Below are positions 39,802 to 44,496 of a DNA stretch of 64,000 nt, in pieces. The position numbers and the translations under genes are program-made. The stretch is from an uncultured Spirochaetaceae bacterium. GTDB lineage: Bacteria > Spirochaetota > Spirochaetia > Sphaerochaetales > Sphaerochaetaceae. The number at the start of each line of letters is the position of its first letter. Within the stretch, counting starts at the first letter, position 1. Below the pieces are notes generated by a model. That model saw only the letters and a list, made by a program, of their open reading frames with translations. It had not been told where the DNA came from and searched no databases. The stretch lies in assembly GCA_900321635.1 (NCBI GenBank), contig ONWV01000006.1:1-64000 (forward strand), read 5' to 3'.

Positions 39802-39823
39802 GAAAAAGCAATTGGAGGCAAAA

Positions 39824-41161
39824 ATGTATAAACTTGATGAGTTTATGGCAGAACTTGAAAGAAAGAATCCCGCGCAGCCGGAGTTTATTCAGGCAGCCAG
39901 AGAAGTCATTTCTTCAGTTATCGATGTTGTTAATTCTAACCCGCTTTACCTCAAGAACAAAATCCTGGACAGAATCGTAGAACCAGAGAGAATCATCCAG
40001 TTCAGAGTCGAGTGGGAAGATGACAACCATGAGATTCAGGTCAACAGAGGATGGCGTGTTCAGTACAACAGTGCAATCGGTCCTTACAAGGGCGGTTTGC
40101 GTTTCCACGCCAATGTCACACTCGGCACACTGAAGTTCCTCGGCTTCGAGCAGATCTTCAAGAACTCCCTCACCACACTGCCGATGGGCGGCGGAAAGGG
40201 AGGCTCGGATTTCTCACCAAGAGGAAAGTCTGATGCAGAAATCATGAGATTCTGCCGTGCTTTCATGACAGAGCTTGAGAAGTACATCGGTCCTGATACA
40301 GATGTCCCGGCCGGAGACCTCGGAGTAGGCGGAAGAGAAATCGGATACCTCTACGGAACATACAGAAAGATCCGCAACGAGAACACCGGCGTCCTCACAG
40401 GAAAAGGATGGGGATGGGGCGGAAGCCGTGTCAGACCAGAGGCAACAGGTTACGGAACAATGTATTTCGCAAACGAAATGCTCAAGGAAAACAACGACAC
40501 CTTCGCAGGCAAGAGAGTAGCAATCTCCGGCTTCGGTAACGTCGCATGGGGCGCAGTCACAAAGGCAACCCAGCTCGGTGCCAAGGTCGTCACACTCTCA
40601 GGCCCTGACGGATACATCCTCGATGAGAACGGAGTCAACACTCCCGAGAAGATTGCCTACATGCTCGAGCTCAGAGCATCCAACATGGATGTCATTGAGC
40701 CGTACGCAAAGAAGTTCGGTGCAAAGTTCGTCAAGGGCAAGAAGCCTTGGGAAGTCCCAGTCGACATGGCATTCCCCTGTGCTCTTCAGAACGAGCTCAA
40801 CGGCGATGATGCAAAGCTCCTTATCAAGAACGGCGTCAAGTATGTCATCGAGACATCCAACATGGGATGCACCCCAGAGGCAATCGAAGCCTTCCAGGCA
40901 GCCCGTATCCCGTTCGCACCCGGCAAAGCAGCCAACGCCGGTGGAGTCGCAGTCTCCGGTCTTGAGATGTCCCAGAACGCAGAGCACTACTTCTGGACAG
41001 CCGAAGAAGTCGACCAGAAGCTTCACGTTATCATGAAAGACATCCACGACAACTGCGTCAAAGAAGGCAAGTGCCCGGATGGCTACATCGACTACGTGAA
41101 GGGTGCTAATATTGCGGGCTTTAAAAAGGTTGCCGACGCCATGTGCCAGCAAGGCTTCTAA
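39824..41161 (+). CDS. gdhA: Glutamate dehydrogenase, probably NADP-specific
   Basis: This enzyme joins ammonia to 2-oxoglutarate. The 445 residues match the hexameric bacterial form of GdhA. Visible motifs are GPYKGGLRFHANVTLGTLKF, the catalytic-lysine region LPMGGGKGGSDF, PAGDLGVGGREIGYLYG, and the dinucleotide fold ISGFGNVAWGA. Overall length and pattern resemble the NADP-type enzyme, but cofactor cannot be proven by reading. The ATG at 39824 has a perfect GGAGG site. A TTG at 39812 overlaps that site and is rejected. Its terminator is 263 bases downstream, beyond two repeats. Confidence 0.95.
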   Translation: MYKLDEFMAELERKNPAQPEFIQAAREVISSVIDVVNSNPLYLKNKILDRIVEPERIIQFRVEWEDDNHEIQVNRGWRVQYNSAIGPYKGGLRFHANVTLGTLKFLGFEQIFKNSLTTLPMGGGKGGSDFSPRGKSDAEIMRFCRAFMTELEKYIGPDTDVPAGDLGVGGREIGYLYGTYRKIRNENTGVLTGKGWGWGGSRVRPEATGYGTMYFANEMLKENNDTFAGKRVAISGFGNVAWGAVTKATQLGAKVVTLSGPDGYILDENGVNTPEKIAYMLELRASNMDVIEPYAKKFGAKFVKGKKPWEVPVDMAFPCALQNELNGDDAKLLIKNGVKYVIETSNMGCTPEAIEAFQAARIPFAPGKAANAGGVAVSGLEMSQNAEHYFWTAEEVDQKLHVIMKDIHDNCVKEGKCPDGYIDYVKGANIAGFKKVADAMCQQGF

Positions 41162-41220
41162 AACGCAATTTCATCCGCGATTTCTGCGGCTTCATCTCAG
41201 CGCCTACCACCGAGGTATGT

Positions 41221-41261
41221 CGCTTCGATGCGCCGCAGCCTCGCGGCGAACTAGCGTTTTA
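41221..41261. repeat. 41-bp GC-rich direct repeat, copy 1
   Basis: A 41-base unit starting CGCTTCGATGCGCCGCAGCC and identical to copy 2 at 41352. It contains a six-base stem CGCCGC/GCGGCG around AGCCTC. Its final GCGTTTTAG also pairs with CTAAAACGC at 41157-41165, at the gdhA stop. The surrounding 240 bases are richer in G and C than other gaps in the window. Confidence 0.9.
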
Positions 41262-41351
41262 GCGGGAATGGTCGTTGCGCTCAGGCCGTGCCGCACGCAC
41301 TGTCCTTCGCTTGCGTCCTAGAAAACCCCTCGTCTATTTGAATTACTTTGG

Positions 41352-41392
41352 CGCTTCGATGCGCCGCAGCCTCGCGGCGAACTAGCGTTTTA
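41352..41392. repeat. 41-bp GC-rich direct repeat, copy 2
   Basis: A perfect copy of the unit at 41221, 131 bases further on, and in the same orientation. The repeat pair lies between gdhA and its terminator. Nothing in the 90 bases between the copies reads as a gene. Confidence 0.9.
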
Positions 41393-41423
41393 TTTATTGA
41401 AAACATTCATATTGATTTGACAG

Positions 41424-41458
41424 ACAGCTGTGCAGGAAACTGTGCAGCTGTTTTTTTT
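41424..41458 (+). terminator. Intrinsic terminator downstream of gdhA
   Basis: ACAGCTGTGCA (41424-41434) pairs with TGTGCAGCTGT (41441-41451), with two G-U pairs, around GGAAAC, and is followed by eight T residues. It is the only strong terminator after gdhA and lies 263 bases from the stop. Confidence 0.9.
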
Positions 41459-41462
41459 CTAC

Positions 41463-41553
41463 GATTTGCAGAGTTTTGCAAGATTTCCAAGATTTGCAAG
41501 ATTTCCAAGATTTCCAAGCTTTGCAAGATTTGCACGATTTGCAAGATTTGCTT
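41463..41553. repeat. Ten tandem 9-bp repeats
   Basis: Units of GATTTGCAA or GATTTCCAA repeat ten times with small changes. One extra base separates the first unit from the second. The array starts five bases after the T run of the terminator and ends 24 bases before the ATG of the next gene. It overlaps the likely promoter: TAATAT at about 41554-41559, with TTGCAC from a repeat unit 17 bases upstream. Confidence 0.92.
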
Positions 41554-41577
41554 AATATGTTACCCAACGGAGGGCTG

Positions 41578-44496
41578 ATGCACTACGAGCTTGATGAAAC
41601 CTGGAAACCTTTCTCCTCTCTGATGCTGAAGCATATTTATAATATTCTTCTCATCTGTTCCGAATATGACCGCTTCATGCTTGAGGAAGACGGACGAGTG
41701 GAGGAGGCTCTTTACAAGGAGTATACCTCATTGGGACTTTCCAACCCTCCGAAGATAACGCATGTCAGCAGCGAGCAGGAGGCTCTGTCTCTTCTTAGAA
41801 GCCTCAATTTTGATCTTGTAATCTCAATGCTTGATTTGGGAACAGACCGTGTGGAGGTACTTGCCCAGCAGGTCAAAGCCATTAACCCCGAACTGCCGTT
41901 CATAGCTCTTTCCCCGTCTCCCGACCACAGGAAGGCAAAGGTCCTTAAAGGCGAGGACTGCCCGTTCATTGACTATATGTTCTACTGGCTCGGAGACCCC
42001 TCTGTGTTCCTTGCAATGACAAAGCTTGTAGAGGACCGCATGAATGTGGATCACGACACAGATGAAGCCGATGTCCAGGTCATAATCTTTGTAGAAGATT
42101 CCGTGCGTTTCATCTCTTCATATCTGCCTCAGATGTATATGCTTCTGATCGAGCAGAACAGAGCATCGATCCGCGAGGCACTGAACGAGTGGGGCACAAA
42201 GCTCAGAATGCGCGGCCGTCCGAAAATTCTTCTTGCCAAAACCTATGATCAGGCCATGGGACTTTACTACAAGTACAGACAGAACGTTCTGGGAGTAATC
42301 ACAGATCTTACATTCGATTCCCCCTGGGGCCGCAATCTTGCCGGAGCCCATATCATAGAGGAAGTTCAGAAGGACAACCCCGAGTGCCCGATTCTGCTTC
42401 AATCCACAAGCAGGGAAGAGGCGGGCGAAGTTGCAAAAAAGTACGGAACGGACTTTATCTGGAAGCTGTCTCCGGACAGACACATGGACCTTGCGGAGCA
42501 CTTTAAGACAAGATATGACTTCGGTCCGTTTGTCTTCAAAGACCCCGCTACAGGAGCTGTTCTTGCAACCGTCTCAAGGATGAAGGAGCTTCAGGAAACG
42601 CTGAAGATCGTTCCGATCGAGTCCTTCATCTACCACACAAGGAAAAACGATTTCTCAAGATGGCTCAGAGCCCAGTCCCTCTATCAGCTTGCAGCCAAGA
42701 TAAAGCCAATCACGCTGAAAAGAGATGCCTCCAATGCAGAAGAGACGCGCGAGCTTATCTACAAGACAATCAAAGAATACAGAAAGGAACGCACCAGAGG
42801 AACAATAGCCCAGTTCAACAGGGAAAACTATGATGAGACGCTGTTCTTCTCAAGAATAGGCGATGGTTCTCTTGGCGGAAAGGGCCGAGGCCTTGCCTTC
42901 ATTGCATTGGAGATGAAGGCTGCAGGCATCAGAAAGAAATATGACGGAATAAGAGTCTCGATTCCAAGGACCGTTGTAATCTCCACGGAGGTTTTTGACC
43001 AGTTCATGGAATACAACCACTTCTGGCCGGGAGACTTCATGCAAAAGTCGGACGACGAGATTCTTACGACCTTCATCGAAGGAAAGCTTCCCCAGGACTT
43101 TGCACTGGATCTTGCGCGCATTGCCGAGGTCATGACAGTTCCCATTTCAGTTCGTTCTTCCTCGCTTTTGGAAGACAGCCATTTCCAGCCGTTTGCTGGC
43201 GTCTACCAGACCTGCATGATTCCCAATGTCGGACCAATTGAGAAGAGGATTTCGGATCTGGAGAAGGCCGTGAAGACGGTGTGGGCCTCAACCTATTTCT
43301 GCAACGCAAGGGAGTATCTCAAGCGTACGGGCCACGGAGTAGAGGATGAAAAGATGGCCGTTATCCTTCAGAACGTCACAGGACGCGACTATGACGGATT
43401 CTGGCTTCCAAACATCTCCGGTGTGGCAAGGTCTTTGGATTACTATCCTGCGGGAAACAGAACAGCCGAGGACGGAATAGGAATGCTTGCATTCGGAATG
43501 GGCAAGACCATAGTGGACGAAGGTTCCGCTTTCCGCTTCTGCCCTGCAAAACCCAAGATTCCCGTCAGCACCATGAACGGCAGAGTCTCTTCGCAGAGTA
43601 TGTTCTATGCCCTGGACAGAAGCAGGGAGTTTGATCCTCACAAAGACATAGACAACCTTGTTCAGATGGATCTTGAAAAAGCCTACGATTGGCCCACGGC
43701 CACACGCGGCCTTGTCTCTGTCATGACGCCTTCGGGCTTTCTGTCGGAAAACTCGGGTGACGAGGGTTTTAAGAGCCTGACGTTCAACGGAATCATAAAA
43801 TATGACATGATTCCGCTTGCTCGGATCATCGATGATGTTCTGAAGCTCGGAACAAAGACAATGTCAGAACCCGTTGAAATTGAGTTTGCCGTGAACATGG
43901 AGCATGAGGAGTGGATAGATTTTTCAATCCTTCAGATAAGGCCTATTTCCAACAGCGACAGATTCGAGGACATAGATGTCTCCGAAGAGGAGATGGAAAG
44001 AGCCCTTGTTTCCTGCACTCATGTCATGGGAAACGGCTCTGCCGAAGGAATCAGGGACATTATCTGTGTCAAACCCGATGTCTTTAAGCGCTCTGAGATG
44101 GTTCAGATGGCGTCTGAGCTTGAGATGCTCAACAAGGCTATGGAGCAGCAGTATGTTCTGATTGTGGCAGGAAGGCTTGGGTCTTCGGACAACTGGCTTG
44201 GAATCCCGTGTTCCTGGCCGCAGATCTCAAAGGCCCATGTCATAGTGGAAACAGGTCTTGCCGACATTCAGGCAGAGCCCAGCGAGGGAACACACTTCTT
44301 CCAGAACGTGACTTCCTTAGGCTGTCTCTATCTTTCCAACAATCCGCTGACAGGGGACGGAAGGCTGGACTTTGAGGGCATTCTGAGCCTTCCCAAAGTG
44401 GAGGAGACCAAGCATTTTGTCCACGTACGCACAGAGGAAGATCTTGTGATCAAGGCCGACGGCCTCAGCGGAAAGGCTGTTGTCAGTAAGGCATAG
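41578..44496 (+). CDS. Receiver-like / PPDK N-terminal domain fusion protein
   Basis: A 972-residue cytoplasmic protein. The N-terminal part has two segments that look like response-regulator receivers: about 20-150, with LLICSEYDRF and DLVISMLDLG, and about 160-310, with VQVIIFVEDSVR and LGVITDLTFDSP. From about 420 it has the ATP-grasp domain of pyruvate phosphate dikinase and PEP synthase (RIGDGSLGGKGRGLAF, then VPISVRSSSLLEDSHFQPFAGVY near 520). The phosphohistidine swivel domain (GGxTSHA) and the PEP/pyruvate barrel of true PPDK are not seen. So it is not an ordinary PEP synthase, and its substrate is unknown. The ATG has a GGAGG site. An open frame reaches back through the 9-bp repeats to a TTG at 41476. 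Confidence 0.82.
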   Translation: MHYELDETWKPFSSLMLKHIYNILLICSEYDRFMLEEDGRVEEALYKEYTSLGLSNPPKITHVSSEQEALSLLRSLNFDLVISMLDLGTDRVEVLAQQVKAINPELPFIALSPSPDHRKAKVLKGEDCPFIDYMFYWLGDPSVFLAMTKLVEDRMNVDHDTDEADVQVIIFVEDSVRFISSYLPQMYMLLIEQNRASIREALNEWGTKLRMRGRPKILLAKTYDQAMGLYYKYRQNVLGVITDLTFDSPWGRNLAGAHIIEEVQKDNPECPILLQSTSREEAGEVAKKYGTDFIWKLSPDRHMDLAEHFKTRYDFGPFVFKDPATGAVLATVSRMKELQETLKIVPIESFIYHTRKNDFSRWLRAQSLYQLAAKIKPITLKRDASNAEETRELIYKTIKEYRKERTRGTIAQFNRENYDETLFFSRIGDGSLGGKGRGLAFIALEMKAAGIRKKYDGIRVSIPRTVVISTEVFDQFMEYNHFWPGDFMQKSDDEILTTFIEGKLPQDFALDLARIAEVMTVPISVRSSSLLEDSHFQPFAGVYQTCMIPNVGPIEKRISDLEKAVKTVWASTYFCNAREYLKRTGHGVEDEKMAVILQNVTGRDYDGFWLPNISGVARSLDYYPAGNRTAEDGIGMLAFGMGKTIVDEGSAFRFCPAKPKIPVSTMNGRVSSQSMFYALDRSREFDPHKDIDNLVQMDLEKAYDWPTATRGLVSVMTPSGFLSENSGDEGFKSLTFNGIIKYDMIPLARIIDDVLKLGTKTMSEPVEIEFAVNMEHEEWIDFSILQIRPISNSDRFEDIDVSEEEMERALVSCTHVMGNGSAEGIRDIICVKPDVFKRSEMVQMASELEMLNKAMEQQYVLIVAGRLGSSDNWLGIPCSWPQISKAHVIVETGLADIQAEPSEGTHFFQNVTSLGCLYLSNNPLTGDGRLDFEGILSLPKVEETKHFVHVRTEEDLVIKADGLSGKAVVSKA

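Follow-up and report, generated by a model that had tools for sequence, protein, structure and literature searches.

A receiver–ATP-grasp protein family encoded beside glutamate dehydrogenase genes in Spirochaetota and Bacteroidota

Glutamate dehydrogenase (GDH) is a main ammonium entry point in gut and rumen Bacteroidota and Spirochaetota, and in the textbook picture glutamine synthetase, controlled by the nucleotidyltransferases GlnE and GlnD, is the covalently controlled step. Pyruvate phosphate dikinase (PPDK), PEP synthase and rifampin phosphotransferase share a PPDK_N ATP-grasp domain, and mutation of K22 and R117 of rifampin phosphotransferase abolishes drug phosphorylation (PMC4844700). 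The HpeI half-enzyme of the split dikinase HpeHI is an ATP-grasp protein with no swivel domain in its own chain (PMC12167813). Pyruvate phosphate dikinases are also named, with no detail, among the effector domains associated with receivers that lack the phospho-accepting aspartate (PMC4395418). A literature search found no paper that describes a fusion of PPDK_N with receivers or a link between such a fusion and GDH; both enzyme names occur in PMC12096838, which is unrelated to this link.

Here we analyze a 64,000-nucleotide stretch of DNA from an uncultured Spirochaetaceae bacterium (the window), in which the gene just upstream of the REC-REC-ATP-grasp gene encodes GDH (Table 1). The GDH gene ends in a strong terminator (RNA fold -21.8 kcal/mol, z -3.55). 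Two GC-rich 44-nt copies, 98% identical, lie between GDH and this terminator (41218-41261 and 41349-41392), and no further copies were found in the window's genome or in the congeners searched. Along the DNA, the tandem array is followed by GGAGG and then by the ATG at 41578. The methionine encoded there (MHYELDETW...) is kept in congeners that have no homologous upstream sequence, and the longer frame from a TTG at 41476, which the first-pass annotation had offered as a possible N-terminal (QDF/QDL) extension, is thus best taken as an artefact of the stop-free 9-bp unit.

Table 1. Positions of the features of the locus in the window.
Feature	Coordinates	Strand	Basis or remark
Glutamate dehydrogenase (GDH, PRK14030 subfamily), partner gene	39812..41161	+	NCBIfam NF010633, 783 bits, above cut-off
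Intrinsic terminator of GDH gene	41422..41461	+	14-bp stem, then T run
9-bp tandem array, 10 units, leader TTTGCAGA-GTTTTGCAA	41463..41553	+	dispersed-family member
REC-REC-ATP-grasp protein, 972 aa	41578..44496	+	ATG start, preceded by Shine-Dalgarno GGAGG
Receiver 1 (about aa 20-161)	41635..42060	+	sequence, alignment, AF2 model, Foldseek; degenerate
Receiver 2 (about aa 165-313)	42070..42516	+	alignment, Foldseek; intact
PPDK_N ATP-grasp domain (aa 431-807)	42868..43998	+	Pfam, Foldseek, alignment
C-terminal domain (aa 808-972)	43999..44493	+	alignment, AF2; no known fold match

Pfam places PPDK_N at residues 431-807 of the protein (E 1e-37), with a sub-threshold receiver match at 59-116. 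An AlphaFold2 model built with 32 relatives (mean pLDDT 84) matches, by Foldseek, tandem-receiver proteins (PleD) and the ATP-grasp domain of rifampin phosphotransferase; since tandem-receiver proteins are among these matches, two receiver folds are present, and the domain content proposed from the first reading, two receivers joined to a PPDK/PEP-synthase-type ATP-grasp domain, is confirmed. Receiver 2 carries the acidic pair, phospho-Asp, S/T and K of a response regulator, with E173, D243, S276 and K296 invariant in all REC-type alignment rows, whereas Receiver 1 is missing the aspartate at the phosphorylation position (FDLVISML). No cognate histidine kinase gene was found adjoining the gene. 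The protein shares its tandem N-terminal receiver folds with PleD, and N-terminal receiver folds likewise with PorX, but the outputs of proteins of this type are GGDEF or alkaline-phosphatase-like domains, whereas the output here is an ATP-grasp domain.

An alignment of 50 family members of both branches (see below) shows K435, R526, E769 and Q786 of the ATP-grasp domain to be invariant (50/50). By motif position, K435 and R526 correspond to K22 and R117 of rifampin phosphotransferase, and the domain thus has the catalytic Lys and Arg of the dikinases in a PF01326 match. The rest of a dikinase is not recognizable: a Pfam search of the 972 residues found no swivel His domain (PF00391, GGxT[SC]H) and no PEP-binding TIM barrel, in line with the first-pass annotation, and the RIF-type substrate domain is also absent. 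A barrel cannot fit, because the chain stops 165 residues past the ATP-grasp domain, and the genome of the window has its sole PF00391 place on a different contig (C72). Compared with the dikinases, the protein instead has N-terminal receivers and a C-terminal domain unrelated to theirs. Lack of a swivel need not abolish function, because split dikinases such as HpeHI work without one in the same chain (PMC12167813); HpeI is Foldseek rank 5 for the model. Two-component dikinases of the HpeHI/PpsAB type thus share with this protein an ATP-grasp module that has no recognizable same-chain swivel, but the protein differs from them in its receivers, in a conserved C-terminal domain of its own and in its neighbor, which is GDH and not an HpeH-like gene.

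The last ~165 residues form a separate domain, which AlphaFold2 models alone with a pLDDT of 94. Its residues R866, E891, S902, G904, H906 and F907 are invariant in the alignment of family members and resemble the residues of an active site or a binding site. A search of PDB and BFVD with the model by Foldseek returned no match with E<=0.001. Strand order and a Gly-Thr-His at a helix start had suggested a divergent swivel, but neither a probability of 3.7% in hhalign against the swivel profile nor the same Foldseek result supports this candidate. A defence-system reading was rejected, as PADLOC gave no defence-system match for the protein. The 972-aa protein is a member of an uncharacterized family of ATP-using signalling proteins.

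The main new result is the linkage of this family to GDH, which, like the conserved C-terminal domain, the first-pass annotation had missed. We sampled 70 family members from the phylum (Spirochaetota) and nearer relatives, counting GDH as a domain match, and found GDH within 5 kb of 56 of the 70, a conserved gene linkage of the kind taken to mark a GDH regulator. The remaining 14 comprise 12 on contigs without GDH and two with GDH farther away on the same contig. In most relatives the adjoining gene is a GDH of cluster c1; in a few genomes (G020, G031) the family gene and GDH are not adjacent. The chance expectation for this adjacency is negligible by a binomial calculation in which members are not phylogenetically independent. 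GDH is present in 36/36 relatives with the family gene and missing in 8/25 without it (Fisher P 4e-4, without phylogenetic correction). Family gene and GDH stand in six relative arrangements overall, three for the REC-type and four for the second branch, and the linkage is therefore not one frozen synteny block. The adjacent GDHs are spread over several distant GDH clades. Where a genome encodes two GDHs, it is with one of them that the family member is paired.

Outside Spirochaetota, sampling covered three Bacteroidota records; a plasmid search with a second-branch protein returned the same three and nothing else, and a scan of genome contigs with one protein found only five close Spirochaetales relatives. 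In Parabacteroides distasonis the annotated gdhA is next door and divergent to the family gene, and the Phocaeicola gene is also GDH-linked; the Prevotella record has the family gene and no GDH inside its 8 kb flanks. In both the Parabacteroides (L097) and the Phocaeicola (L099) record a GDH gene stands on either side of the family gene within several kb, and in the former the intervening stretch holds RapZ-like and nucleotidyltransferase-family genes. The Parabacteroides protein is annotated merely as 'PEP/pyruvate-binding domain-containing protein'. The linkage to GDH thus holds across phyla (Spirochaetota and Bacteroidota) and across GDH lineages.

Members of the second branch (775-1075 aa) have the same core, ATP-grasp plus C-terminal domain, without receivers. 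Several carry a C-terminal nucleotidyltransferase domain, and these also adjoin GDH. Proteins with C-terminal NTP_transf_2 stand beside GudB-like GDHs at five loci (L120, on contig C35 of G058; L155; L158; L159; L161), and the order at the first of these is GDH, a 564-aa core-only protein and a 1054-aa protein of core plus nucleotidyltransferase. The family therefore consists of a constant core with variable attachments: REC-REC, an unassigned N-terminus or a C-terminal nucleotidyltransferase. A constant core with exchangeable inputs, tied to different GDHs, fits a regulator better than a metabolic enzyme.

Because the family gene adjoins GDH in most genomes examined, the family probably controls GDH. 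We tentatively favor, at somewhat short of an even chance, the reading that the 972-aa protein regulates GDH, or nitrogen metabolism at the GDH step, as an ATP-grasp phosphotransferase under receiver control. A histidine kinase would phosphorylate Asp243 of receiver 2, with receiver 1 serving as a pseudo-receiver and structural partner, and this phosphorylation would open or close the PPDK-type ATP-grasp domain. That domain would then split ATP and hand on the phosphate to GDH itself or to a partner bound to it, perhaps via His906, which is invariant in the C-terminal domain, and GDH activity would thereby change. The His906 relay is a guess, since no homology to a swivel was detected in the C-terminal domain. 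The earlier proposal of a phosphotransfer or regulatory role with another molecule as the target is likely on this evidence, with GDH now as the putative target. What the sequences establish is the domain content, the intact ATP-grasp and receiver-2 residues, the invariant C-terminal set and the linkage. Linkage by itself does not prove GDH to be the substrate; the protein might bind GDH and leave it unmodified, or the chemistry on which it acts might be that of 2-oxoglutarate, glutamate or ammonium.

An alternative is a small-molecule kinase or ligase in the GDH pathway that uses ATP to activate glutamate, 2-oxoglutarate or another nitrogen metabolite, as the PEP synthase-like enzymes PigC, RedH, rifampin phosphotransferase and HpeHI act on their substrates, with the receivers switching it on under the GDH condition. 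In NCBIfam the ATP-grasp domain best matches small-molecule enzymes (PigC, RedH, PEP synthase and rifampin phosphotransferase), and HpeI provides a precedent for a swivel-less ATP-grasp enzyme (PMC12167813). However, neither a substrate-binding domain nor a swivel is recognizable in the protein, the regulatory modules on the core are exchangeable, and the linkage is to several GDH lineages and not to other metabolic genes; we regard this alternative as unlikely. Somewhat more improbable is a GDH adaptor or inhibitor whose binding would depend on ATP and on the phosphorylated receiver and would involve no phosphate transfer. Such a protein would account for the strong GDH linkage and for the lack of a phosphate-carrying swivel by Pfam, hhalign and Foldseek, but in 50/50 members both the catalytic residues of the ATP-grasp domain and R/E/H of the C-terminal domain are invariant, a degree of conservation that binding alone should not require.

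We also characterized the array that separates the GDH terminator from the start of the REC-REC-ATP-grasp gene. Tandem Repeats Finder bears out the ten 9-bp units that had been noted before the gene (41463-41551: period 9, 9.8 copies, 86% matches, far above the rest of the window). Arrays of the same family, with a GATTTGCAA unit and the leader TTTGCAGA-GTTTTGCAA, occur at about 12-14 intergenic sites in the window's genome, upstream of genes, downstream of genes and between convergent genes, in both orientations. They are also found at a few sites in the nearest relative (G010, 97% identical protein), whose contig with the family gene is also on record from a yak abomasum MAG. The array contigs are C29, C36, C39, C52, C61, C68, C70 and C78 of G000 and C7, C119, C216 and C274 of G010. 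Apart from one weak 3-mismatch match in G003, no array was found in the other genomes searched, backwards-pattern controls gave zero matches, and the array is missing before the family gene in congeners whose proteins are 74-86% identical.

Dispersed intergenic arrays of short units are known from cyanobacteria as short tandemly repeated repetitive (STRR) sequences. The family described here resembles these in its short-unit tandem arrays dispersed in intergenic DNA and differs in having a conserved leader and a 9-bp GATTTGCAA unit; among the genomes searched it is confined to two Spirochaetales MAGs that are close relatives. The flanks of arrays at four loci (L074, at about 2188-2440; L078; L082; L083) hold other 9-bp-unit repeats, such as the AAGCCTACC and GAGCTTTAC types, whose translations read as GLIGLIGL runs, and the genus may host several 9-bp array families.

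Comparison of repeat number, as the first-pass annotation had proposed, shows 10 units here and 7 in the sister species. Four orthologous sites could be compared between the species, and at each the arrays differ in length by whole units (27, 27, 18 and 27 bp, or 3, 3, 2 and 3 units); unit number is thus unstable on the species time scale. No sigma-70-like site was found within 41100-41700. A repeat conserved at, and specific to, a regulated promoter is not what we observe; the array is dispersed, and it is absent at this site in other congeners. The array is thus probably not a promoter switch but is a separate dispersed intergenic repeat, and nothing ties its unit number to expression of the 972-aa gene. 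That it tunes the promoter of this gene by phase variation, as had been suggested, is very improbable: it lies just upstream of the start codon and varies in unit number, but that variation is seen only between species, the array recurs at unrelated sites that include gaps between convergent genes, congeners keep the gene without it, and no sigma-70-like site was found in the region.

Returning to the GDH reading, a broader version of it, which we hold with more doubt, is that the family may be widespread and, with a new-fold C-terminal domain, may exert reversible covalent control of GDH in Spirochaetota and Bacteroidota. It would then do for GDH what the modifying enzymes do for glutamine synthetase, and its inputs (receivers, nucleotidyltransferase) would be exchangeable. 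The proposed likeness to GlnE/GlnD lies in a dedicated enzyme controlling a nitrogen-assimilation enzyme, and some family relatives also carry a nucleotidyltransferase domain; the difference is that the target would be GDH and that the core is an ATP-grasp domain with no homology to the GlnE/GlnD core. Reversible inactivation of GDH in Bacteroides fragilis was reportedly described in the 1980s, and if this reading is true, the family would be a candidate for the agent behind it. As the gene pair is present in culturable Parabacteroides and Phocaeicola, the idea is directly testable. If true, a dedicated, signal-controlled GDH enzyme would change the textbook picture centered on glutamine synthetase.
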